From: a virus
DNA length: 39,540 bases
Direction: 5' to 3' (one strand)
IMG/VR virus record: IMGVR_UViG_3300009081_000023
Location: 1-39,540 of that record
The notes below the pieces were generated by a model that was given only the letters and a program-made list of their open reading frames with translations, was not told the DNA's origin and did not search any database. Positions 1-39,540 of this stretch are shown here, one piece after another (positions within the stretch are counted from its first letter, which is position 1; every line of letters starts with the position of its first letter). The translations under genes and the position numbers were made by a program.

Positions 1-123
1 ACCGGGTTTTCTATTCCGGCTGACTCTGACCTGTGGCTTTTTGATTCTCTGTCTTGGTACGCCGAGCAGGTTCAAACAACAACGACAACAGTAGAACCGT
101 CAACGACAACCCAAGCACCATCC
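1..123. repeat. terminal direct repeat, left copy
   Basis: These 123 bases are identical to 39418-39540. The reading frame of the surviving C-terminal part of a gene here continues exactly from the frame that runs off the right end of the window, so the two ends join seamlessly. This is what a circular assembly with a retained overlap, or a terminally redundant genome, looks like. A true fixed terminal repeat is less likely because the repeat lies inside a gene. Confidence 0.95.
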
Positions 124-630
124 ACAACGCAAGAATCAACCACATCATCTACCGCCACCACTTCCTCGACCGTGGCCGAAACCATACCACCAGCCCCACC
201 AGCCACAGAACCCCCAGCAGAGACGACCTCATCGACTACTTCCCCCGCCACATCAGTCGCGCCTTCCACAACTGAAACGCCAGCAACAACGCTCCCGCCA
301 CCCACATCCACCACATTGCCAATACCTCCTCCCACCACCATACCCGCGCCACCCACAACTGCCACGCAGACCACGCTCCCAGCCTCCGCACAAGACGACT
401 CCCCTGTCTTAGTACCCGATACCACCCAAGTCGAACAGCCCCCAATGGACGCATCTGAAGAGGAGAAAGCGGAGTTCGAATCCCAGGTTGACGTCTTCTC
501 GGGCGAGTACGACACCTACGTCCCTCTCGGTTCCACCATTACCGTGGCCCAACGCCGCACCGTGGTCGCCGCCACCGCAGTTTTCATCATCGCCATGCCC
601 GCCCCATCTACAATGAGACGACGCTCATGA
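1..630 (+). CDS. secreted Thr/Pro-rich stalk protein, C-terminal part (joins 39025-39540)
   Basis: This is the 3' part of a gene split by the window edge; joined through the 123-base overlap it encodes about 340 aa starting at 39025. In this part, after about 25 residues that finish a folded domain, there is a stalk of roughly 110 residues made almost only of Thr, Ser, Pro, Ala and Glu (about nt 73-405). An acidic stretch follows (EEEKAEFES), then a hydrophobic segment (VVAATAVFIIAM), and the protein ends with Arg residues (MRRRS). With the N-terminal signal peptide, this is the layout of an exported, membrane-anchored stalked protein. The stop overlaps the next start (ATGA at 627). Thr/Pro linkers like this are common in secreted proteins of Actinobacteria, especially Acidimicrobiia. 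Function unknown; surface exclusion, attachment or a lysis role are only guesses. Confidence 0.8.
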   Translation, partial: TGFSIPADSDLWLFDSLSWYAEQVQTTTTTVEPSTTTQAPSTTQESTTSSTATTSSTVAETIPPAPPATEPPAETTSSTTSPATSVAPSTTETPATTLPPPTSTTLPIPPPTTIPAPPTTATQTTLPASAQDDSPVLVPDTTQVEQPPMDASEEEKAEFESQVDVFSGEYDTYVPLGSTITVAQRRTVVAATAVFIIAMPAPSTMRRRS

Positions 631-790: not shown

Positions 791-1018
791 ATGGCAACCC
801 TCAAGACCCTCATCCTCCGCATCATCGCCGTGTTCGGCTCGTCCGCTCTCGCCGCTGTCGCAGGTGGCGCGGTTCTCGACGTCGAGTTGTGGAAGGCCGC
901 CGCTATCGCAGGTATCGTCGCCGCCGCCAAGGTCACCGAGGCGCTGTTGCGTGCATGGTCGAGCGATGGTGTGCTCACCAAGGAAGAGATTGCTGAGGCT
1001 TTCGGCAAGGCTAAGTAA
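791..1018 (+). CDS. holin-like membrane protein
   Basis: A 75-aa protein starting at the ATG of MATLKTLILRII; a longer in-frame version would overlap the gene before it and lose this clean N-terminus. It has two hydrophobic segments rich in Ala and Gly (about residues 6-29 and 33-50), followed by a soluble acidic/basic helix ending KEEIAEAFGKAK. It ends TAATG, sharing a base with the endolysin start. Small Ala-rich two-helix proteins directly upstream of the endolysin are typical actinophage holins, so this is the best holin candidate of the three small membrane proteins here. Confidence 0.7.
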   Translation: MATLKTLILRIIAVFGSSALAAVAGGAVLDVELWKAAAIAGIVAAAKVTEALLRAWSSDGVLTKEEIAEAFGKAK

Positions 1019-1566
1019 TGGCAAAGCCATTCCCCATTGTCAAAGTAAAACTGTGCTCACACCTCAAAGGTGTAAAGCCAGGAGAACTAACGCCTGACCT
1101 TCTCAAGAACATTGAGAAAGGCAAGTTGCACCATTGTGCCGCTGACGCATATGAGGCTATGGATGCGGCGGCGAACGAAGCAGGCATCGACCTAAGCCCC
1201 ACTTCAACCGCTGACACATACCGTTCGTTGGAGATGCAAGAGTACGGGTTCTTTCAACGGCACACCACCACCCCGAAGCCGAAGCAGATGAAGCAGAAGC
1301 CCCGCATCTACAAGGGCAAGGCGTGGTATTTGAAGAAGGGCATGGCCCCCTTGGCGGTGCCTGGAACCAGCAACCACAACCTCGGTATCGCTGTCGACAT
1401 CGCCAACGCATCAGGCAAGCGTCTTGAATGGATGCTGGCCAACGCCCACAAGTATGGGTTCTCTTGGGAACTTCAGAGCGAGCCGTGGCACATCCGCTAT
1501 GTGGCAGGCGATGATATTCCAGAGGCGGTCAAAATCTGGAAAGAGTCCAAAGTAGACGAGGCATAA
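1018..1566 (+). CDS. endolysin, M15 D-Ala-D-Ala carboxypeptidase/L,D-endopeptidase type
   Basis: A 182-aa peptidase of the VanY/M15 family, which cuts peptide bonds in peptidoglycan stems or cross-links. The zinc-site signature SNHNLGIAVD lies at residues 118-127 (His120 and Asp127 as ligands), and SEPWHIRY at 154-161 supplies the catalytic Glu and the third ligand His158. The N-terminal 60 residues do not look like a known wall-binding repeat. It lies between small membrane proteins, the expected lysis cassette. There is no signal peptide, so release needs a holin. Confidence 0.9.
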   Translation: MAKPFPIVKVKLCSHLKGVKPGELTPDLLKNIEKGKLHHCAADAYEAMDAAANEAGIDLSPTSTADTYRSLEMQEYGFFQRHTTTPKPKQMKQKPRIYKGKAWYLKKGMAPLAVPGTSNHNLGIAVDIANASGKRLEWMLANAHKYGFSWELQSEPWHIRYVAGDDIPEAVKIWKESKVDEA

Positions 1567-4875: not shown

Positions 4876-5308
4876 CATTCAGCGCGTCGAAGGATACGAA
4901 CCCACTCACGACATCAAACGATTCGACTTCTCAACCGACCTAGCGTTCGGCCATGAAGGAGAAGAGATTGTACGATTGTTCCTAGAGAAGTTCGCATCTG
5001 GCGACGTCGAAGTGAAATACGACAGGTACCGCAACGGACGCATCTTCGTAGAGTTCGAACAGAACCCACGTAATACAGGATGGAAACCATCAGGTATCGC
5101 CGTCACTACCTCAGCATGGTGGGCGTATGTGTTCTCGCCAGGGGCATTGGTTATAATTGAAGTCACACGACTCAAGCGATACCTCAAACAGAACTGGCCA
5201 AACTTGCGCCAACTGGTAGCCGCTCCTGACTCCGACAACCCAGCGAAAGGAATACTTCTATACCCCGACCAAGTCAGGGACGTGATGACATTATCCACCT
5301 ACGATTGA
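4862..5308 (+). CDS. PD-(D/E)XK nuclease-like phage protein
   Basis: A 148-aa protein, start placed at GTG 4862 to limit overlap with the previous gene (an in-frame ATG at 4829 is possible). The pattern is that of a phage nuclease-fold family: FGHEGEE helix, EVKYDR (Glu50, Lys52, Asp54), VEFEQ (Glu64-Glu66), then PSGIAVTTSAWWAYVF and a final VTRLKRYL. Expected role is DNA cleavage in replication, recombination or host-DNA breakdown, not defined from sequence. The next gene starts 8 bases after its stop. Confidence 0.65.
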   Translation: MTTPDIQRVEGYEPTHDIKRFDFSTDLAFGHEGEEIVRLFLEKFASGDVEVKYDRYRNGRIFVEFEQNPRNTGWKPSGIAVTTSAWWAYVFSPGALVIIEVTRLKRYLKQNWPNLRQLVAAPDSDNPAKGILLYPDQVRDVMTLSTYD

Positions 5309-5316
5309 GAGACCAA

Positions 5317-5826
5317 ATGTTGAAACGTATTGTGTGCGTACTTTTCACGGGGCTAGTGGTAGCCGTTCCCCCCGCGGCGGCAAGTACAGACGAAAGCAAA
5401 ATGTCCGAAGGGAAGAAGGGAAGCCAAGTGTTCAGCCCAATCAGGGCCACCCCAAAGCGGGCTATCCCCGACGACCCAGAGATGCGATGCCCCCAATGGC
5501 ATCCCCTGTTCCGCAAGTACGGGCTCCCCGTCCAGGTGTTCTCGTACATTGCTTGGCGTGAGTCAAGGTGTCGGGCCCATGCAGTCAACGCCACATGGAA
5601 CAAGCACGGAGTCATGACTTACTACCTGAACCGCAACAAGTCATGGGACAGTGGCATCCTCCAGGTCAACTCCAGTTGGGTCAAGAGTGTCCGAGCGGTA
5701 TGCAAGGTAGACACTGGGGACATGCGCCAAGACCTTGAAGTGTTGCTCGACCCAGAGTGCAACGTCAGGTTTGCTCGCTGGATTATGGACAACACCAAGG
5801 GCGGACTGGGGAACTGGAGCCTTTGA
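5317..5826 (+). CDS. secreted lysozyme-like lytic transglycosylase
   Basis: A 169-aa protein starting at ATG 5317 (an upstream in-frame TTG would spoil the signal peptide). Residues 1-23 are a Sec signal peptide: MLKR, a hydrophobic core, then PPAAAS. After a 35-residue linker comes a soluble transglycosylase domain: the catalytic-type Glu82 in IAWRESRC, then DSGILQVNSSW (residues 111-121) and a terminal GNWSL. Paired Cys residues fit an exported protein. Such enzymes cleave glycan strands. Unusually it sits with recombination genes, not with the lysis cassette, so it may remodel the wall early in infection or serve entry. Confidence 0.8.
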   Translation: MLKRIVCVLFTGLVVAVPPAAASTDESKMSEGKKGSQVFSPIRATPKRAIPDDPEMRCPQWHPLFRKYGLPVQVFSYIAWRESRCRAHAVNATWNKHGVMTYYLNRNKSWDSGILQVNSSWVKSVRAVCKVDTGDMRQDLEVLLDPECNVRFARWIMDNTKGGLGNWSL

Positions 5827-16865: not shown

Positions 16866-17240
16866 ATGTCCGACGCAGGATACGCACAACGCACAGACCT
16901 ACTCGCACCGAAAGCCGCACCAGGCCAAACCTACGGTGAGGCTGGACAGCAGATTGCCGCACAGAAAGCGGTACCGATGGGCAACCCCACGCCTTCCGTA
17001 CAGCAGACACCGCGCCCACGCCCAGGCCAGTTCGGTCCACTAGACCGCCCGACCGAACGCCCCGACGAACCGCTCACCGCAGGAGCCCCGTTCGGTTCAG
17101 GGCCAATGCCGCAAGCCAACGCATACATGGGACGCCGCAACGCCGACCCAGTGCTCGACGAACTTCGTGCTCTGTACGCCTCCTATCCGTCAGACGAACT
17201 TGCTGACATGCTGGACTCTTATCTTCGCGAAGGATACTGA
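16866..17240 (+). CDS. Pro-rich protein after portal
   Basis: A 124-aa protein whose ATG follows the portal stop with no gap. The first 90 residues are Pro/Gly/Ala/Gln-rich and likely disordered (GQTYGEAGQQIAAQKAVPMG); the last 30 form a helix-turn-helix-like acidic segment (PVLDELRALYASYPSDELAD). Short Pro-rich proteins just after the portal are common in actinophages and of unknown role, perhaps a portal or ejection-protein adaptor. It overlaps the next start. Confidence 0.7.
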   Translation: MSDAGYAQRTDLLAPKAAPGQTYGEAGQQIAAQKAVPMGNPTPSVQQTPRPRPGQFGPLDRPTERPDEPLTAGAPFGSGPMPQANAYMGRRNADPVLDELRALYASYPSDELADMLDSYLREGY

Positions 17241-20200
17241 TGGCCGTATTTGGCGCATTTGACCCTACAGACGAAGACAATCTTGATAAAGAAGCACAAG
17301 ACGCAATCTCGACTGTAAGCAATCTCGGCAAAAACACCACCCCACAACAGGCGCAAATGCTCGCGGACCTGTACAAAAAGATGCCTTGGGTTGCACCGAA
17401 GGTGCTGTTGGACGCATCAAAGAACCCGAACTTGTCACCACAGGCACAGCAAGTTATTGCTAACGCGGGCGCCACCCAGTACATCAAACAGAACGACCCT
17501 AATAATCCAGAGAAAAAGAAGGGTTGGTGGGACCGCAACGTATACGACAAGGTGAAGTCTGTGTCCCGTTGGACGTTCGCTGGCCTTCAGTTCGCACCCG
17601 ACGTAGCACAGAACGTAGCGTCACAAATTTTCTCTGGCAACGACCCCGACGGTATTGACGGATGGTTCAAGTCCACCCAGTTGGGCACCATGGTCGGCGG
17701 CGATGACGCTGGAGAAGGATTCTTTTTCGGTGGCAAAGCCGCAGACGAACAGGCCCGCCGTGCCCGCGAGTTCCGTGGCACCATCAACGGCCATGCCTGG
17801 ACCATCGGACGTGGCGCCGCAGACCTTGTCTTCACCCCAGGAAGCAAGCCATACTCCCTGCTGTCAGGGTTCCTTGATGCCTCCGTACAAATTTTTGCCG
17901 ACCCAACCCTGTACGCGGGGCAGGCACTAAAAGCCGCCAAGACAGGTGAGGCCGCCAAAGGCGTGTGGGGCACCCGCAAAATTTCTCAAGTCATCGCCGA
18001 CGCCGCAGTAGAAAAAGGCATCGTTCAAACCGACAAGATTCCTCAACTCACCAAGGAAGCCGCTGAGGCCGCCGCACGAATCAGCCGAGGCGAAATCGGA
18101 ATCAACTCCGCCGAAGCCATCTCATTTGTCGACTCCGACTACTTCCGTTGGTTTGACAAGAACAACAAAGCAGTCCGCCTCTCCGAACGATTCGCAGGGT
18201 ACGCCTCTGAAGCAACAGCAAAAGCAGTTGGCCTTTCCGACGAAGCAACAGAAATCGAACGTGGCAAAGCCGCACTCAAAATCATGCAGGACTTCCGTGG
18301 ACGCATCGACGGAGAAACAGCCATGCGCCTTGCCGCCGCAGACAGCCCACTCAAAGTCAAGGCTGTACTTGCAGAAGCCGCAAGCCAACTTGGGCGAGAA
18401 ACAAACAGCGTTATCATCCCACGCCAAATCGGAAACATCCGAGGTGCAGGCGCAACCTATGCGGCCCGCGAACTTGCCCGCGAACGTGTACCGCTATGGC
18501 GCAACATCCGACACAGTTCTTGGTGGGAACAAATCCCAACCGAAGGCGCAATCGTCAACGGCTCCAGCCTCGACCGCGCCAAGTCCATTCGCACCATGGA
18601 CCAGTGGATGCGAGGCATCGGATACCACACCGCCAAAACCGCAGACTACGAAAACTTCATGGGTAAAACTGTCGCCTACCTATCAGACACCGACGGCGCG
18701 AAGCGCAACATTCGGTTCGAAAAACTGTACGACGAGTTCGTAGAAAAGATTACAGAGTTTGCTGGCGGAGACAAGGCCATCGCCACCGAAACCACACGCC
18801 GTCTCCGCGACGAACTTGCAAAAGTGCGAACCTACGCAATCGACAACGCTGGCCTGCCCGACGACGGTGGGCTTGTCCAGATGCTCCGCCAGTACATTCC
18901 CGACAAGGTTCTAGAAAAGTTCAGTCCAGATGAACTAGACAACCTGAAAACAAACGGACCAGGCGCACTCATCGAACTTGTCGACAAGACCCTTGTCCTT
19001 CCCGACTTCCGCAAGTATCGCGCCATCGTCGGCAACCCCGTCACCCGTAACGCCCTTCGCACCCGCGCTGGAGACGAGCGTGTTTTGGTGGCTGTTACCA
19101 ACCAACTTCAGCAAGAAGTCTGGAAACCACTTGTGCTTGCCACTGGTGGATACGTGGTCCGCAACATGATTGACAGCCACATCCGTATCGCCGCCCGCGG
19201 ATACCAAAGTTTCTTCACCCATCCCTTCCAATTTATCCAGACAGTCATCGGTTCACGCTACGTCGGACCACTAAACAGGCCAACCGACAAGTTCGGTCGT
19301 GTGCTCGCCCGCACCTTCGAAGAAATGGACAGCGACGAAATCTCAGAAAGCCTCGCAGGAATCTGGGACGACTACTCCAGGGCTACAAACAAGACTGTTT
19401 ACAACCACCTCAAAGACCCGTTGTTGGCCAACGAACGCCAGTTCCGTGGAGAAAACTTCGCCATTGTCACCCGCCAAGGTGACCGTGCCGCCCACACCAC
19501 TGGGTATATCGACAGCATTGGACAGGTCGCTACCGACCCTATCCTCCAGCAAATGTCCCGATACTGGCGTCTTCCGCGCGATGAGCGAAACGCCAAACTT
19601 ATCGAATGGATGGAAAACACCGCCGAAGGCAAACGGGCCAAGGCTGACGTTCTGGACTTCTTCTCCTCTGGGGTGCGTCTTCCCCACCACCGCACAGGCA
19701 AAAACTTTTACGTCACTTTTGACCAGGCCAGTGACAACGAAAAAATCATGGCATGGCTTGAAGGACCAACCACCGCACGAATCCAAACCCTCATCAACGG
19801 TGACGAGGACATGCGCTTCATCGTCCAGCACGACCGCGTCCCCCTCATCGAAACAGTTGAACTTCCCAACGGGACCAAGCAGACCCAAGTTGCCCCTCTC
19901 GTAAACAACCAGCGCTTAGACACCCTGACGCCAATAGAACCAGGCAAACCGCTCGACGTCGGAAGTGTTATCAACATGGGCAACGGCAACGAGGGCGTCA
20001 TCACTGACATTCGCACCATCCAAATCAAAGACCCATTCAACCCAGGTGTAGTCGTCGACGAGCAGATTGCTGACGTTCAGCCAGTCTTCAAGGGTGCCGC
20101 GTTTACCCGCCGCAAGAACGACCCGACCCTGTTCGGGACAGAAGAACTCCGTCGCATGGTCGACATCAAAGGCGATGAAGGAATCTTGCCTCAGTTTGTA

Positions 20201-22048
20201 AAGCGCGCAGAACGAATCGAAAAAGGAAAAACCGTTGGCCTCGATAAACTCAGTGGCGCCCTCGACACAGGGGTGCGCTGGTTTTTCGGTGGCATTGTAG
20301 GTACCGCACAAAAGAACCTGGAACGCTCCCCGTTCTTTCGTCAAGCCTTCTACAAAGAAGTCGCCGACAGCGCAATGATGCTGTCCCGAGACGAACAACT
20401 CAAGTTGCAAAAGCAGATAACCGACTATGTGGCCGACCTCAACCAGGACCTTTCCCGCAAGGGTTTTGCCAACCTGACTGAAGAACGCTACGTCGGCGGC
20501 AAAGACATCTACAACAAAATCTTCGGCACAGCCGCCACGGGTGACGCAACCATCGACGACCTCCAGAACTTTGCGTCCGCCGTAGCCCTCTACGACGTCG
20601 AACGAACCCTGTACAACGCGGCAGAAAAGTCCAACTTCGAAGACATGTTCCGCATCGTCGCCCCATTCGCAACCGCTTTCCGCGAGACTTTAGGAAAGTA
20701 CAGCCAGTTCCTCATCGAAGACCCGAGCCGCATCCGCAAGACCCAACTCGCTGTCAACGCCATGACCTACGACAACGATGACCCAGACGACTTCATCTCT
20801 GGGTTCTTCGACAAAGACCCTGTCGACGGCAAAAGCGTGTTCAATGTTCCTATCGGCGGCTGGGTTGGTGGCATCCTCGCGTTCCCGACCAAGGGCCCAT
20901 TCCAGGTGTCGAACCTTCCTGGGTTCGGGCCAGTCGTACAAATCGCCGCGTCCAGCCTCCTTCCAGACACACCGAAACTCGATGACTTCCGTAAGTTTGT
21001 TTTGCCATACGGTGAACAGAACCTCAGCGCCATTCTCCCCGCCTGGGCGCGCCGCGGTTTCGAAGCCGTCAAAGCCGACACCACCAACGCCGCTTCAATG
21101 TTCGGCCAAACCTACGTGGACACCATCAAGTATCTGATGACCACAGGCAAATACGACACCAGTAACCCAGACGAGATGGCGCAACTCTACGCTGACGCTA
21201 AGGGCAAAGCCCGCAACCTGACCATCCTCAGGTCGTTCTTTCAGTTCATGGGCCCAACCTCACCGCGCCTCGACTTCCGTGTCGACCTCGAAAACGGTGA
21301 CGTCCTGGCGTCCAGCATCGCTGAAGCCTGGTACGACATGCGAAGCGAAAACCCAGACACAGCAGTCGAACGGTTCATCGAAACCTTCGGCGAAGAAGCA
21401 TTCTCCTACATGGGTTCCAAGACCCGTGCGGTAGCAGGTGGTGTCGAAAACACCGAAGCATTCCGCGAATGGCAAATCGAAAACGGTGACCTGTTCGAAC
21501 AGTATTCCAACGTGGCTGGCTACCTTGCCCCAGGCGGAGACATATTCTCGTTCCAGGCTTACAACCGCGCGTTGCAGGCTGGCCTCACCAGGAGACTTAG
21601 CCCAGTAGAAGTGAAAGAAGCCGCAGACTATGTCATCGGCAATTTCTACTACCGTCGCAAACGCGACGCTATGGGAGACACGTTGAGCGATGAACAGCGT
21701 GCATGGTTGGGCAGGTACCGAGAAGTAATCAACAAGAAGTTCCCTGGGTTCCCTGTGTCGGCCCAGTTCAATCCGAACCAGTTGGATGATGACATTTCTG
21801 ACTTGCGTCGCCTCACCTCGGATGCCCGTGTGGCCGACAACCCGACCGCCGCCAGTATCGCCAAGTACATCAACTACCGTGACCAAGCGCTTGCCGAGGC
21901 CGAGAAGGTCGGTCTTACGACCTTGGATTCCAAGCAGGCGGCCCCGTTGCGGGACTGGTTGAGTAGTATTGCTCGCGTACTCATCGACGAAAACCCTGAG
22001 TTTGCAAGAATCTATACTGACAAGTTCTCCCCAGAGGTAGACAAATGA
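17240..22048 (+). CDS. giant internal virion/ejection protein candidate
   Basis: At 1602 aa this is the largest protein of the phage. It is mostly helical with many charged residues and no long transmembrane segment. Landmarks are WWDRNVYDKVKSVSRWTF near residue 95, AARELARERVPLWRNIRH near 415, LATGGYVVRNMIDSHIRIA near 635, and a C-terminal region with YVIGNFYYRRKRD. It lies between portal and scaffold, where podoviruses place large core or ejection proteins that leave the capsid with the DNA. No lysozyme or polymerase motif was seen. The C-terminal regions of the next genes share its helical style. Confidence 0.6.
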   Translation: MAVFGAFDPTDEDNLDKEAQDAISTVSNLGKNTTPQQAQMLADLYKKMPWVAPKVLLDASKNPNLSPQAQQVIANAGATQYIKQNDPNNPEKKKGWWDRNVYDKVKSVSRWTFAGLQFAPDVAQNVASQIFSGNDPDGIDGWFKSTQLGTMVGGDDAGEGFFFGGKAADEQARRAREFRGTINGHAWTIGRGAADLVFTPGSKPYSLLSGFLDASVQIFADPTLYAGQALKAAKTGEAAKGVWGTRKISQVIADAAVEKGIVQTDKIPQLTKEAAEAAARISRGEIGINSAEAISFVDSDYFRWFDKNNKAVRLSERFAGYASEATAKAVGLSDEATEIERGKAALKIMQDFRGRIDGETAMRLAAADSPLKVKAVLAEAASQLGRETNSVIIPRQIGNIRGAGATYAARELARERVPLWRNIRHSSWWEQIPTEGAIVNGSSLDRAKSIRTMDQWMRGIGYHTAKTADYENFMGKTVAYLSDTDGAKRNIRFEKLYDEFVEKITEFAGGDKAIATETTRRLRDELAKVRTYAIDNAGLPDDGGLVQMLRQYIPDKVLEKFSPDELDNLKTNGPGALIELVDKTLVLPDFRKYRAIVGNPVTRNALRTRAGDERVLVAVTNQLQQEVWKPLVLATGGYVVRNMIDSHIRIAARGYQSFFTHPFQFIQTVIGSRYVGPLNRPTDKFGRVLARTFEEMDSDEISESLAGIWDDYSRATNKTVYNHLKDPLLANERQFRGENFAIVTRQGDRAAHTTGYIDSIGQVATDPILQQMSRYWRLPRDERNAKLIEWMENTAEGKRAKADVLDFFSSGVRLPHHRTGKNFYVTFDQASDNEKIMAWLEGPTTARIQTLINGDEDMRFIVQHDRVPLIETVELPNGTKQTQVAPLVNNQRLDTLTPIEPGKPLDVGSVINMGNGNEGVITDIRTIQIKDPFNPGVVVDEQIADVQPVFKGAAFTRRKNDPTLFGTEELRRMVDIKGDEGILPQFVKRAERIEKGKTVGLDKLSGALDTGVRWFFGGIVGTAQKNLERSPFFRQAFYKEVADSAMMLSRDEQLKLQKQITDYVADLNQDLSRKGFANLTEERYVGGKDIYNKIFGTAATGDATIDDLQNFASAVALYDVERTLYNAAEKSNFEDMFRIVAPFATAFRETLGKYSQFLIEDPSRIRKTQLAVNAMTYDNDDPDDFISGFFDKDPVDGKSVFNVPIGGWVGGILAFPTKGPFQVSNLPGFGPVVQIAASSLLPDTPKLDDFRKFVLPYGEQNLSAILPAWARRGFEAVKADTTNAASMFGQTYVDTIKYLMTTGKYDTSNPDEMAQLYADAKGKARNLTILRSFFQFMGPTSPRLDFRVDLENGDVLASSIAEAWYDMRSENPDTAVERFIETFGEEAFSYMGSKTRAVAGGVENTEAFREWQIENGDLFEQYSNVAGYLAPGGDIFSFQAYNRALQAGLTRRLSPVEVKEAADYVIGNFYYRRKRDAMGDTLSDEQRAWLGRYREVINKKFPGFPVSAQFNPNQLDDDISDLRRLTSDARVADNPTAASIAKYINYRDQALAEAEKVGLTTLDSKQAAPLRDWLSSIARVLIDENPEFARIYTDKFSPEVDK

Positions 22049-28255: not shown

Positions 28256-28594
28256 ATGGCTATTGGTGACAGGAACGAGGCGCGGCTTGGTGGGCCTACC
28301 CAGTTGGGTACGACTACTACGACTATTTGTACTGCGGCTACGGGGTATGCGGAGATTTTGAAGCAGATTGTTATTTGTAACACGGACACGGTTGACCGTA
28401 CGGTGACGTTGGCTGTTGGGTCTGCTGCTACTGCGGCGAATCGTTTGATGTCGGGTTTGCCGATTGGTGCTAATGACACGGTTGTGTTTGATACGGCGAT
28501 TGTGTTGGCGGCTGGTGAGACGTTGCAGGGTTTGTCGGATACGGCTGACAAGGTGACTGTGACTGTTGTCGGCTGGGAGAAGCAGACCGCGTAA
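28256..28594 (+). CDS. small tail-associated protein
   Basis: A 112-aa protein, almost all beta-strand (TQLGTTTTTICTAATGYAEI, ILKQIVICNTDTVDRTVTL, LQGLSDTADKVTVTVVGWE). It resembles small phage proteins that cap or decorate fibres. It starts one base after the previous stop and overlaps the next start (TAATG). Codon use is strongly G/T-ended. Confidence 0.6.
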   Translation: MAIGDRNEARLGGPTQLGTTTTTICTAATGYAEILKQIVICNTDTVDRTVTLAVGSAATAANRLMSGLPIGANDTVVFDTAIVLAAGETLQGLSDTADKVTVTVVGWEKQTA

Positions 28595-29487
28595 TGGGTA
28601 TCGGTTCTACTTACGGTTCCCTTGGGTTACAGGGTTATGAGGAGTGGAAACTGAAGCAACCTTTTGATGTTGAATATCTGGTCGTGGGTGGCGGCGGTGG
28701 TGGTGGTCGAGGTACTGGTGGCGGTTCTGGAACTGGCGGCGGTGGCGGTGGAGCGGGTGGATTTCTGACTTCTACCGTCAAAGTGTCAGTTGGCGCGTCG
28801 TACACGGTCACAGTCGGTGCAGGCGGAACTGGTGGAACATCAAACACAAATGGTTCAAACTCTGTATTTTTTTCATTTACAGCAACTGGCGGAGGTCGTG
28901 GCGGTGGAACGCAGTCTGTAGGCAATGGTGGTTCAGGTGGAGGCTCCGCACGAGACACCAACGGTTCGGCGGCGGGCACTGGTATTTCTGGTCAAGGTTT
29001 TGCTGGTGGTATTAGTTCTGGTGCGGCAGGGTGGAAGGGCGCTGGCGGTGGTGGTGGTGCGTCGGCGTTGGGCGGTAACGGTGGGGGCACTGGCGCAGAG
29101 GCTGGGGAGTTTGCTGGAAGCGGTGGTGCTGGAACAGCGTCGTCAATTACTGGTTCATCGGTTACTTATGCTGGTGGCGGTGGTGGTGCGCAGGCGGGAA
29201 CTGCTAACTCTGGCGGTTTGGGCGGGGTCGGTGGCGGCGGCAACGGTGCTAGTCGTTCGCGTAATGCTTCATCTGGTGCGGCGAACACGGGCGGAGGTGG
29301 TGGTGGCACAGAAACCTCTTTTGCTAGTGGCGGCACGATGGATGGCGGTTCGGGTGTAGTAATACTTTCTTATCCAACTTCTTGGACTATCACGGCTGGC
29401 GGGACGTTGGCGTCTTCAACGACGACGGCGGGTAGCAAGAAGGTCACGACGTTTACTTCTGGCACAGGAACAATCACTTTCTCATGA
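28594..29487 (+). CDS. glycine-rich tail adhesin
   Basis: A 297-aa protein. After a 30-residue leader (EEWKLKQPFDVEYLVVGG) most of the chain is Gly runs broken by short strands (GGGGRGTGGGSGTGGGGGG and many alike). It ends with a beta domain (SGVVILSYPTSWTITAGGTL, TGTITFS). Gly-rich loops of this kind form polyglycine-II lattices in phage adhesins such as S16 gp38 and similar tip proteins. A paralogous design with the same leader idea (IAVGGG) and end (GTVTF) occurs at 38337-39023. Receptor binding is inferred. Confidence 0.7.
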   Translation: MGIGSTYGSLGLQGYEEWKLKQPFDVEYLVVGGGGGGGRGTGGGSGTGGGGGGAGGFLTSTVKVSVGASYTVTVGAGGTGGTSNTNGSNSVFFSFTATGGGRGGGTQSVGNGGSGGGSARDTNGSAAGTGISGQGFAGGISSGAAGWKGAGGGGGASALGGNGGGTGAEAGEFAGSGGAGTASSITGSSVTYAGGGGGAQAGTANSGGLGGVGGGGNGASRSRNASSGAANTGGGGGGTETSFASGGTMDGGSGVVILSYPTSWTITAGGTLASSTTTAGSKKVTTFTSGTGTITFS

Positions 29488-32353: not shown

Positions 32354-33025
32354 GTGATAACAGGATTCAAAAACCGGTACCCCGGTCAAACCATCTATGT
32401 GTTTGGCTCCGGTAAATCATTGGACTTTTATTCCAAAGAGTTCTTTGACGACAAAATTTGTGTGGCAACCAACCAAGTTGGTCATGTGTACGGCCTCAAA
32501 AACTATGTGTCGTGCGGCCACCACTATGAGGCCGGTGAAAGGTATCGGGCGCTTGGTATGGAAGCACCTATCGTGACCCCAGACAGAGACACGACACGCC
32601 TCGACATGGCACCACTTCCCGATGAGGGCAACGTGTTTAGGTATCCTGCCTCAAGACAGTATTTTCACCGGTTCGACGTGAACCTGCATTGGCCCAAAAA
32701 CCCAGACGCGCTGGTTGTCGGGTCGTCTGGGTTGCACTCCGCGATGCACTTGGCGCAGTACATGGGCGCTTCAACGATTGTGTTGGTCGGCGTGGACCTG
32801 GGAACCCTGGATGGGCACACCAACTTTGAGGCTTACCTTCATCGGGGGCAGGTTGATAAGGTGCGTGGAGCACAAACGGAACATTCGTGGGTTGCTTGGG
32901 AAAAGCACACCAGGGATGTTGCGAACAAACTGCGTGAACTTGGATGTCAGGTGATTTCATTGAACCCTTTTATTGACCCGAACCTTGAAGGACACCAGTA
33001 CAGGGGTGTTTGTGAAATCAACTAG
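32354..33025 (+). CDS. glycosyltransferase-like protein (DUF115/MptE-like fold)
   Basis: A 223-aa protein from a GTG start. The N-terminus QTIYVFGSGKSLDFYSKEFF is a Rossmann-like nucleotide loop, followed by CVATNQVGHVYGLKNYVSCG and later DALVVGSSGLHSAMHLAQYM and TIVLVGVDLGTLDGHTNF. This order resembles the DUF115/6-hydroxymethylpterin diphosphokinase-like and sialyltransferase-like proteins used in glycan or flagellin modification. With the next gene it suggests sugar modification of virion or host wall. Specific reaction unknown. Confidence 0.6.
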   Translation: MITGFKNRYPGQTIYVFGSGKSLDFYSKEFFDDKICVATNQVGHVYGLKNYVSCGHHYEAGERYRALGMEAPIVTPDRDTTRLDMAPLPDEGNVFRYPASRQYFHRFDVNLHWPKNPDALVVGSSGLHSAMHLAQYMGASTIVLVGVDLGTLDGHTNFEAYLHRGQVDKVRGAQTEHSWVAWEKHTRDVANKLRELGCQVISLNPFIDPNLEGHQYRGVCEIN

Positions 33026-34130
33026 GTACCTTTCTTTCTTTGGGCCGCACATGCCGAACATTGGGTATGGTCGCATGTTCAACTCTTTGTTGGAAGAATT
33101 GTCCAAACATGTAACCATCGATGAGCACGCTGAACATGCGGTGTGGGCGATGCAACCGAACATGGTGAAGGGCTGGTTCAAGGGACAAAAGCGAACCATC
33201 TTGACGATGTGGGAAACCGATGAATTGCCAAACTCTTTCAAAGATTATTTGCCGCAGTTCGACACCGTCATCGTCCCGTGCCTACACAACATGGAGTTAT
33301 TTGAGCCGCACCATCCGAATGTGCATGTGATTCCGTTGGGCGTTGACCGTTCCGTGTGGTACCCCCGGACGCGGGGCACTGACGGCAAGTTCCGTATTTT
33401 CGCTGGAGGTTCCGAATGGTATCGAAAAGGTTTGGATGTCGTAGTCGAGGTATTTACTAGGTTGAATTTGCCTGACTGTGAGTTGCATATCAAAATTCCT
33501 CCACCCCATTTGGGTGCCCCCGAGGTGATGGATTGGCCGAACGTGGTGATGCACACCGAATGGATGACCCTGGAGGAAGAAGTTGATTTGGTCACCTCAT
33601 GCGATTTGTTTGTGTCTGCTTCCCGAGGCGAAGGGTTCGGCTTGATGCCGTTGCAGGCCATCTCTGCTGGTGTCCCAACTGTTATTACCGACATGACTGG
33701 GCATCGAGAATTTTCCGACTTGGCAAATTATCGTGTCAGCGGCAACTTGGAGCCTTCTCGTATAACAACCTGGGAAACTATCGGGAATTGGGTTGAACCG
33801 AATCGCGATGAACTTGCTGACGCCATCAAAGATGTGTATCACAATCGGGAGAAGGCAAACAAACTGGCCTTACGAAACGCCCCACAAACAGCGGCGTTCA
33901 ACTGGGCTACCGCCGCAGAACAATTCTTGCAAATAGTCAAACCTTCAGACCGAAAGGTTGAACCATCTCAAACCCCCGCTGGAGAAATCCTGGTGCCAGT
34001 ACGGGTGAACAAGACGGTAATAGCGGACATTGGCAGGTATCATGTCCACCTGGTTCCCGGCCATGTACATCATGTATTCTTGAACGTGCGGGACGCTCTC
34101 GCTAACTCCGGTTACCTCATAGAAGATTAA
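33012..34130 (+). CDS. GT4-family glycosyltransferase (GT-B fold)
   Basis: A 372-aa protein; GTG 33012 is chosen because AGGGG stands 5 bases before it. The N-terminal lobe has FFGPHMPNIGYGRMFNSLL. The C-terminal lobe has the sugar-nucleotide site SASRGEGFGLMPLQAISAG (about residues 202-220) followed by VPTVITD. The usual E-x7-E of GT4 enzymes is E207-x7-Q215 here, so the second Glu is replaced. After about residue 310 comes an extra beta-rich tail (ILVPVRVNKTVIADIGRYHV). It probably glycosylates a phage or host surface molecule. Confidence 0.8.
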   Translation: MKSTRYLSFFGPHMPNIGYGRMFNSLLEELSKHVTIDEHAEHAVWAMQPNMVKGWFKGQKRTILTMWETDELPNSFKDYLPQFDTVIVPCLHNMELFEPHHPNVHVIPLGVDRSVWYPRTRGTDGKFRIFAGGSEWYRKGLDVVVEVFTRLNLPDCELHIKIPPPHLGAPEVMDWPNVVMHTEWMTLEEEVDLVTSCDLFVSASRGEGFGLMPLQAISAGVPTVITDMTGHREFSDLANYRVSGNLEPSRITTWETIGNWVEPNRDELADAIKDVYHNREKANKLALRNAPQTAAFNWATAAEQFLQIVKPSDRKVEPSQTPAGEILVPVRVNKTVIADIGRYHVHLVPGHVHHVFLNVRDALANSGYLIED

Positions 34131-37434: not shown

Positions 37435-38337
37435 ATGGCATACGCAACACGGAGGTCTTACGCTGGCGCGGCCCCTGCCTGCACCCTGACCAACAACGTC
37501 GCATCCGGCGACACCTCAATGTCCCTCACTGGGGACACGACTAACTGGCCTTCGACCGCCAACGGGCCGTTCTTCATGGTCATTGACCCAGGTTTGGCAA
37601 CCGAAGAAAAGATTCTGGTCATTACCCGTTCGACGGGTTCCCTGTCATCGGTGACCCGTGGTGCAGATGGGACGATTGCTTCTGCCCACAACGCGGGAGC
37701 CAATTGCTACCCGGTGTTCACCGCTATCGATGCGGACCAGGCGAACAAGGTTGCTTCGACGTTGACCACTAAGGGTGACTTGTTGGTGACGGATGGTTCT
37801 GCTTTGAACCGTCTTGCCGCTGGTACTAACGATTATTTGTTGGTTGCTGATTCTGGTCAGACGAATGGTGTGAAGTGGGCGCAGGTTAATGCGTCCGGTA
37901 TTGCGTCTGACGCTGTGACTACCGCAAAGATTCTTGATGCGAACGTGACCACGTCAAAGATTGCAGATAACGCCGTGACTCAAGCAAAGTTGGCTGACCG
38001 TGTTATCGGTTCCGCTGAGTACGACAGCCTCTCATTAAACGCTCAGACTGGTACTACTTACACGTTGGTGTTGGCTGACGCGCACAAAGTTTTGACTCTG
38101 AACAACGCTTCCCCTATTACGTTGACCGTGCCCCCCGAGTCGTCGGTTGCTTTTGAGATTGGTGACCAAGTGAACTTGTTGCAGTTGGGTGCAGGTCAGG
38201 TGACGGTTGCGGCTGGTTCTGGTGTGACCTTGAGGGCACAGGGCACTCGCGTGAAGTTGAACGGTCAGTACGCTCTCGCCACTCTTGTGAAGATTGGCAC
38301 CGATGAGTGGGTGCTGGTCGGCAACACGGTGGCGTAA
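37435..38337 (+). CDS. tail fibre protein
   Basis: A 300-aa protein with GGAG before its ATG. The N-terminal 105 residues contain the 'ATEEKILVITRSTGSLSSVT...AHNAGANCYP' motif that also occurs in the adaptor. A coil of DAVTTAKILDANVTTSKIAD and NAVTQAKLADRV repeats is a typical trimeric fibre neck. The C-terminal domain is TYTLVLADAHKVLTLNNASP, then LLQLGAGQVTVAAGSGVTLR. Codon use changes from C-ended to G/T-ended at about 37770, in the middle of the gene. Confidence 0.75.
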   Translation: MAYATRRSYAGAAPACTLTNNVASGDTSMSLTGDTTNWPSTANGPFFMVIDPGLATEEKILVITRSTGSLSSVTRGADGTIASAHNAGANCYPVFTAIDADQANKVASTLTTKGDLLVTDGSALNRLAAGTNDYLLVADSGQTNGVKWAQVNASGIASDAVTTAKILDANVTTSKIADNAVTQAKLADRVIGSAEYDSLSLNAQTGTTYTLVLADAHKVLTLNNASPITLTVPPESSVAFEIGDQVNLLQLGAGQVTVAAGSGVTLRAQGTRVKLNGQYALATLVKIGTDEWVLVGNTVA

Positions 38338-39023
38338 TGCAAATCATCGGGTCACCGGCGGCTCGCAACACCCCATCTTCCGTTGAATACATTGCTGTTG
38401 GTGGTGGCGCTAACGGCACTGGGGGTAACTGGACGAACAATGAGTTCGGTACGGGTGGCGGTGGTGGTGGTTTGGCTTCTGGGACTTTAACTAATCCTGT
38501 TTCTGGGACGGTGACTGTTGGCGGGGCTGGTGCTAATTCGACGTTCTTCGGTGAAACTGGTAACGGCGGTAGTCAGGGTACTTCTAGTCAACAGCCCCAG
38601 TTCAGTTCTGGCGGTGTAGGCGGTGGGCGTAGCACTGTTGGTGGTGGTAATGGTGGCAACGGTGGCACTGTCGGAGCCAATGGTGTTGCTGGTAACGCAT
38701 CAAGTATTTCTGGTACGTCCGTAACTTACGGTGGCGGCGGAGGAGGTAGCAGCCAGACGGCTCCTGGCACTGGTGGGGCTGGGGGCGGAGGTAACGGCGG
38801 TACGTCTGTTGGGAGTGCCGGTACCGTTAACACTGGCGGTGGTGGTGGCGGCGGTGCGTTCGGCGTTGGCGGCGCTGGTGGCACTGGCGTGGTAATCATG
38901 CGTTACACCGACACATTTGACGACCCTTTCTCCATTGATGTTGGTTTGACCTACGCCAAAACGACAAGCGGTGGGTACAAAGTGTTTACGTTTACTGCTG
39001 GTACCGGAACGGTGACGTTCTGA
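38337..39023 (+). CDS. second glycine-rich tail adhesin
   Basis: A 228-aa protein whose ATG overlaps the previous stop. After SVEYIAVGGG the chain is mostly Gly runs (GTGGGGGGLASGTL, GGGNGGNGGTVGANG, GTVNTGGGGGGGAFGVGG), ending in a short beta part (GVVIMRYTDTFDDPFSIDVG, GTGTVTF). Same design as the 28594 adhesin, probably a paralogue used for receptor contact. The stalk protein gene starts one base after its stop. Confidence 0.7.
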   Translation: MQIIGSPAARNTPSSVEYIAVGGGANGTGGNWTNNEFGTGGGGGGLASGTLTNPVSGTVTVGGAGANSTFFGETGNGGSQGTSSQQPQFSSGGVGGGRSTVGGGNGGNGGTVGANGVAGNASSISGTSVTYGGGGGGSSQTAPGTGGAGGGGNGGTSVGSAGTVNTGGGGGGGAFGVGGAGGTGVVIMRYTDTFDDPFSIDVGLTYAKTTSGGYKVFTFTAGTGTVTF

Positions 39024-39024
39024 G

Positions 39025-39540
39025 TTGCGGTTTTTACGCCTCATAGTTTTCGCTCCGGCGGCGATACTTGCATACGCAACCCCCGGCAACGCTGAAACAT
39101 TTGTAGAATCATTCGACAATGGAACCGCAGAACACCTGTCGATTTCCCTCGCCCCAGGTGCGCGGTATTGTAACGAGTACTCAGGAATGTACGGTACAAG
39201 CGGACCGTCTCTTTGTTTGTTCAATACAACTGATGGAACAGTTTTTGATTTTCCGTCAGATGTTTATGTACAAGGATTCCAGTTCACAGCAGGAGCCAAA
39301 AACGGAACCACCGAACTGACCGTCACTTACGACGATGAGACCACCAGCACCGCAGAAATAGACGGGACATGTTGCGTGGCAACAGTTCAAGTTGTTGCAC
39401 CTGAGGGTAGATATATCACCGGGTTTTCTATTCCGGCTGACTCTGACCTGTGGCTTTTTGATTCTCTGTCTTGGTACGCCGAGCAGGTTCAAACAACAAC
39501 GACAACAGTAGAACCGTCAACGACAACCCAAGCACCATCC
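39025..39540 (+). CDS. secreted Thr/Pro-rich stalk protein, N-terminal part (continues at 1-630)
   Basis: Starts at TTG 39025, one base after the adhesin stop; no other start fits the signal peptide. Residues 1-24 (LRFLRLIVFAPAAILAY, then ATPGNA) are a Sec signal peptide. A beta-rich domain of about 130 residues follows, with Cys residues suited to disulfides (ARYCNEYSG, SLCLFN, GTCCVATV) and GFQFTAGAKNGTTELTVTYD. It runs into the Thr/Pro stalk. The frame continues without a break into position 1; bases after 39417 repeat the window start. Signal peptide plus C-terminal anchor point to the host cell surface. Confidence 0.8.
   Translation, partial: MRFLRLIVFAPAAILAYATPGNAETFVESFDNGTAEHLSISLAPGARYCNEYSGMYGTSGPSLCLFNTTDGTVFDFPSDVYVQGFQFTAGAKNGTTELTVTYDDETTSTAEIDGTCCVATVQVVAPEGRYITGFSIPADSDLWLFDSLSWYAEQVQTTTTTVEPSTTTQAPS
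39418..39540. repeat. terminal direct repeat, right copy
   Basis: Identical to 1-123. See the left copy; the unit length without the overlap is 39,417 bases. Confidence 0.95.

Follow-up and report, generated by a model that had tools for sequence, protein, structure and literature searches.

A predicted phage stalk protein with exchangeable heads and a membrane-anchor module in common with Acidimicrobiia surface proteins

A gene that carries a predicted signal peptide and lies between phage tail and lysis genes raises the question of where its product acts, in the virion or on the infected cell, and what it does there. The gene described here is located in the window, that is, the whole stretch of 39,540 nucleotides of IMG/VR virus record IMGVR_UViG_3300009081_000023 that was analysed.

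The joined stalk gene and its surroundings

The window has a 123-bp terminal overlap, bases 1–123 being identical to the last 123 (39418–39540); since the sequence also comes from a virus record, it is a circular phage contig. Joined across the ends (39025–39540 plus 124–630), the stalk ORF encodes 340 residues, from a TTG start placed 1 nt past the stop codon of the upstream gene to a stop codon at 628–630. The pN/pS values were 0.34 for the head, 0.22 for the C-terminal domain (CTD) and 0.19 for the two-transmembrane (two-TM) partner ORF that follows, which indicates that these three reading frames are under purifying selection. The circular overlap, the intact ORF and the purifying selection agree that the gene is real from 39025 through 630, as an earlier note on this DNA had joined it. 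That note also described a layout of signal peptide, cysteine-containing beta domain, a rod rich in Thr, Pro, Ser and Ala, and a hydrophobic anchor ending in Arg residues, and every one of these parts is present (Table 1). The signal peptide is of the Sec type (MRFLRLIVFAPAAILAYATPGNA followed by ET, with TPGNA before the cleavage site and ETF after it), the beta domain includes four cysteines that are invariant across 10 relatives, the rod of about 120 residues has the T/P/S/A composition, and the C-terminus consists of a hydrophobic stretch and then RRRS. The CTD includes the conserved motif D-x-Y-V-P-x-G-S-x-I-x-V-x-x-R-R.

Table 1. Coordinates of the stalk gene, its parts and the adjacent genes in the window
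Feature	Position	Strand	Remarks
Glycine-rich tail-tip/adhesin gene	38307..39023	+	directly upstream of stalk gene; Pfam PF21722
Stalk gene, 5' part	39025..39540	+	residues 1–172; ORF and translation
Signal peptide	about 39025–39096	+	within stalk 5' part
Beta head	about 39097–39480	+	then start of Thr/Pro rod; AF2 model all-beta
Stalk gene, 3' part	1..630	+	bases 1–123 repeat 39418–39540; new sequence from 124
Thr/Pro rod	about 64–435	+	within stalk 3' part
C-terminal domain (CTD)	about 442–627	+	within stalk 3' part
Hydrophobic segment	about 559–603	+	within stalk 3' part
Two-TM partner ORF, 53 aa	627..788	+	ATGA overlap with stalk stop (MRRFFNFLADNSWTYAGTGLVLITLTGPTLRQALWLTGVTLVLHSVLTLTQKD); phrog_29041
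Small holin-like membrane protein, 75 aa	791..1018	+	after two-TM ORF; no Pfam match
VanY/M15 D-Ala-D-Ala peptidase, probable endolysin	1018..1566	+	Pfam PF02557, 8e-16

The gene had been placed between adhesin and holin genes. The adhesin is indeed its upstream neighbour, but on the other side the two-TM ORF, which had escaped notice, precedes the holin-like gene; it encodes two hydrophobic helices and a TLSG-type motif. The holin-like product matches PHROG 26427, whose label, "nuclease", is doubtful. The tail-tip gene of the window was not found in the relatives G001 and G002, both of which are fragments. Elsewhere in the window, 5305–5826 encodes an exported protein, with a signal peptide and then an SLT transglycosylase/lysozyme-like domain (PF01464, 9e-7), that is far from the VanY lysis region and could be a signal-peptide endolysin; a 1602-residue ORF in the head-gene region (17240–22048) has no Pfam or PHROG match; and a phage glycosyltransferase upstream of the tail genes (32973–34130; GT4, PF20706/PF00534; PHROG 2170) might have the rod of the stalk, rich in Thr, or a virion protein as its substrate. 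This one phage encodes two distinct Gly_rich_2 (PF21722) proteins, at 28594–29487 and 38307–39023.

No match for the CTD was found in Pfam, PHROGs or NCBIfam, the last of these having been run, among the stalk parts, on the CTD only; the head type of the window has no match in Pfam, including its CBM families, or in PHROGs, and the two-TM segment belongs to no Pfam or NCBIfam family. Searches of the PDB gave no match for the stalk by sequence, and, despite a confident model of the CTD (pLDDT 88), its best match by fold had an E-value of 0.28. Nor did literature searches turn up a protein described with this layout. The partner ORF, on the other hand, matches PHROG 29041, a family of unknown function, over its full length (E 4e-29; the E-values from scripted searches refer to small local sets). 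As far as the stalk is concerned, Pfam, PHROGs and NCBIfam (CTD) bear out the proposal that no described phage family has this layout.

Relatives in viral contigs and exchange of heads

A search with the stalk head recovered two close relatives, and a pattern search of IMG/VR for the CTD confirmed at least 380 viral contigs. The probable endolysin VanY, encoded 0.4 kb downstream, served as bait to collect 80 loci; 74 had enough upstream sequence, and 72 of these carry at the same position a stalk gene with the same CTD. Among named phages, relatives were found only in DSL-LC01. A crude signal-peptide test was passed by 92 of the 94 distinct 5'-complete stalks and by 4 of the 35 other genes of the window.

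The N-terminal regions of these proteins fall into unrelated clusters, five from phages (37, 31, 11, 10 and 5 members) and others of host type. At least five unrelated heads are found on the same rod and anchor: one CBM-like, one PA14 (by Pfam, cut-off passed), one PPC-like (by Pfam, below the cut-off) and two unnamed. The AF2 model of the head of the window is all-beta, with a core pLDDT of about 85–96, and CBM61, CBM29, CBM35 and CBM11 were among its top Foldseek matches (E 2e-4 and weaker), although the TM-scores to CBMs are modest, at 0.4–0.5; for CBM61, at E 2e-4, a TM-score of 0.41–0.47 was obtained. A glycan-binding role of the head is moderately supported.

Among viral structures (BFVD), the same head resembles domains of tail fibres and of unnamed phage proteins. 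A virion tail component, in which the N-terminal hydrophobic stretch merely resembles a signal peptide, would fit this likeness of the beta-sandwich heads and a gene that adjoins the tail genes; nevertheless, AxA-type signals are present in nearly all homologues despite their differing heads, the protein has a C-terminal TM and a coupled two-TM partner, and fused orthologues reside on host chromosomes, all of which make a place in the virion very improbable.

Before 39420, in the region of the signal peptide and head, the window and the related locus L002 are 61–76% identical; from 39481, where the rod starts, identity rises to about 100%, which shows a single crossover at the head/rod border. 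Across the 72 loci, the tail-tip gene upstream is hypervariable and the head mostly stays; in other cases the anchor is conserved and bears a different type of head. Fourteen pairs of loci are at least 95% identical downstream; in 10 of them the tail tips are unrelated or barely related and the head DNA is 68–95% identical. Evolution of the head in lock-step with the tail-tip gene was considered and rejected, given that the tail tip is swapped in those 10 of 14 pairs. Since head and tail tip vary separately, the heads are exchangeable yet not tied to the receptor-binding tip. That heads stay when the tail-tip gene beside them is replaced weakens the earlier suggestion that the stalk holds progeny, as it does the idea of a protein dedicated to work with the tail adhesin.

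The two-TM partner and the surface proteins of the likely hosts

In 123 of 125 unique family members, a two-TM ORF of 52–61 residues with the same TLSG-type motif starts between −3 and +14 nt relative to the stop codon of the stalk gene. The exceptions are a locus where an HNH-like gene lies between the two ORFs (L089:2257–2736), and DSL-LC01, where a single fused gene encodes the stalk with the two-TM segment at its end. Proteins that are fused in one genome and encoded by coupled neighbours in another are usually the two parts of one complex. From the occurrence of both arrangements here we infer that the stalk and the two-TM protein may form one membrane anchor. The loci L048 and L096 keep the two-TM ORF and VanY and have no stalk gene, which suggests that the partner may also have a job of its own.

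A first genome scan with peptide patterns of the CTD gave no confirmed relative. When the CTD was searched as a degenerate DNA pattern, 6 loci were detected in 257 Gb of genomes: one phage-like and five host-chromosomal, from freshwater Actinomycetota MAGs. Two of the five are titled Acidimicrobiaceae or Microthrixaceae, and one Bifidobacterium with the same protein; the latter, a contig titled Bifidobacterium breve (L174), bears an Acidimicrobiia-type surface protein, and its bin is probably mislabelled. These large host proteins combine a signal peptide and various heads with a rod of poly-Thr and the CTD known from the phages. The two-TM segment is either part of the protein or encoded by the ORF that follows. 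The phage partner is homologous to the C-terminal end of these proteins: an HMM built from viral two-TM ORFs only matches the host stalk proteins or the adjacent ORF with E-values of 2e-15 to 5e-7, and DSL-LC01 with 3e-16. Of 101 genomes that belong to one host family, nine contain the CTD, in one copy each, and all nine have the two-TM segment, which occurs in 1 of the 92 genomes that lack the CTD (Fisher p 5e-12). The CTD is rarer in a sample of the class (5/296, one being a weak match to a serine-hydrolase-like protein) and in one of the phylum (1/396). The host genes are located among core chromosomal genes, not in prophages; their neighbours include what we take, from sequence, to be groES-groEL and guaB/guaA.

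In a tree of the CTD and two-TM segment, a clade with support 0.965 unites all hosts, DSL-LC01 and two viral loci, from which it follows that the module is common to phages and hosts yet rarely exchanged. The head of the window was not found in 201 host-family genomes, in a search run without a positive control, and the window stalk has no host-type head (RCC1, BspA, etc.), the heads clustering apart. Phage and Acidimicrobiia share, by sequence, one predicted membrane-anchor module (CTD plus two-TM), and this makes Acidimicrobiia the likely hosts of these uncultured lake phages. In fresh water, Acidimicrobiia are an abundant group with hardly any cultures; the anchor in common could serve as a marker to link uncultured phages to their hosts.

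These results bear on a role in lysis, in which the stalk and the two-TM protein would help to trigger or complete the process, the head gripping wall glycans, the rod spanning the wall and the two-TM protein acting as holin, pinholin or regulator. The short distance from the end of the stalk gene to the start of VanY (390–928 nt, median 424, in 72 of 74 loci), the ATGA coupling to a 53-residue two-TM protein beside a holin-like gene, and the survival of the two-TM gene without a stalk in the two loci mentioned above would all suit such a component; moreover, actinophage lysis cassettes often include several small uncharacterised TM proteins (PMC9671378). Nevertheless, the same CTD and two-TM module is part of an ordinary chromosomal host surface protein, lysis needs no exchangeable binding heads, and the fused gene of DSL-LC01 has no annotated lysis gene adjacent. 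Among relatives found by their CTD, the holin family is nearby in 44 of 71 and VanY in 16 of 71. As distant relatives are not always beside a recognisable endolysin, the purely lytic role raised earlier loses ground, and we consider a component of the lysis cassette, plausible though it is from the position of the gene, unlikely.

Proposed display on the infected cell and comparison with known systems

The explanation that we favour, with a probability of about 0.6, is that the locus encodes a non-virion module for surface display on the infected cell, acting late in infection through an exchangeable and probably glycan-binding head. Export and membrane anchoring of the stalk are strongly suggested by its predicted parts, and the earlier proposal that it is shown on the infected cell, not on the virion, is well supported: almost every homologue has a Sec signal, and the anchor also occurs in chromosomal surface proteins of hosts. 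The stalk would be made late, together with the tail and lysis genes, and exported by the host Sec system with cleavage after GNA; its C-terminal helix would lie in the cytoplasmic membrane with the coupled two-TM partner, the Thr/Pro rod, possibly O-glycosylated, would span the cell wall, and the CBM-like jelly-roll head would be presented outside. There it could bind glycans on the infected cell or on its neighbours and thereby alter adherence late in infection.

The most likely use of such a display would be to mask receptors exposed by the infected cell and by its debris, sparing progeny and rival virions from loss. Receptor masking is our first choice, with cell-to-cell or particle adhesion close behind. 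Masking of the phage's own receptor is counted against because the heads do not change together with the tail tip, and classic superinfection exclusion because a late gene would be poorly timed for it. The stalk could instead be an adhesion or conversion factor that makes infected cells attach to particles or other host cells, so that progeny are likelier to meet new hosts. The architecture, which is that of host surface proteins, the heads of CBM, PA14 and PPC type, and head exchange independent of the tail tip, expected if the ligand differs from the phage receptor, are consistent with this; however, late timing leaves little time to act, and no tyrosine integrase (PF00589) was found, which makes a benefit to lysogens unlikely. 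This alternative seems possible, if rather doubtful.

Late display on the infected cell may also be stated more broadly, as a modular surface-display system of freshwater actinophages that would give the infected cell a new outer dress late in infection. Its anchor, common to phage and host and split into stalk and two-TM protein, would accept at least five unrelated heads of lectin-like kind; this wider proposal is tentative. If true, it would be a prokaryotic parallel to the envelope glycoproteins on infected cells, in phages that have no enveloped virion. A phage-borne host surface anchor with exchangeable heads would give a testable handle on phage effects outside infected cells, and the analysis names a two-protein membrane module whose stalk has no family in Pfam, PHROGs or NCBIfam.

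Among known systems, LPXTG-type sortase substrates consist of a head, a rod, a conserved short motif, a hydrophobic segment and an Arg tail, and the stalk resembles them in this overall layout. However, no LPXTG-like motif precedes its C-terminal TM; the conserved motif is YVPxGS, which is not a terminal sorting signal, since the host versions run on into two more TM helices. The Ltp-type superinfection-exclusion lipoproteins (phage TP-J34, PMC3952083) are phage-encoded and exported and, like the predicted stalk, are meant to act on the surface of the infected cell; they are lipid-anchored and belong to the lysogeny module of temperate phages (PMC3952083), whereas the stalk is predicted to be TM-anchored, has no Cys near the cleavage site that could serve as a lipobox, lies between tail and lysis genes, among late genes, and carries exchangeable beta heads. 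For PHROG 29041, the library output records no link to a stalk.

Further likenesses are found in a named phage and on bacterial chromosomes. WJZ48438.1, a hypothetical protein of Actinomycetia phage DSL-LC01, has a head-type domain 35% identical to that of the window and the same CTD and two-TM segment; it differs in its length of 945 residues, its several heads linked by poly-Thr, a two-TM part that is fused as in hosts, and the lack of an annotated lysis gene next to it. The undescribed stalk proteins of Acidimicrobiia MAGs (e.g., L174, L177, L184–L186) have, like the phage stalk, a signal peptide and a Thr-rich rod, and the same CTD (YVPxGSxIxVxxRR) and two-TM segment, the latter either within the protein or encoded by the following ORF. 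In contrast with the phage module, they are much larger, carry RCC1-like, BspA-like or other heads, have a two-TM part preceded by a long Gly/Ser linker, and are encoded in one copy per genome among housekeeping genes.
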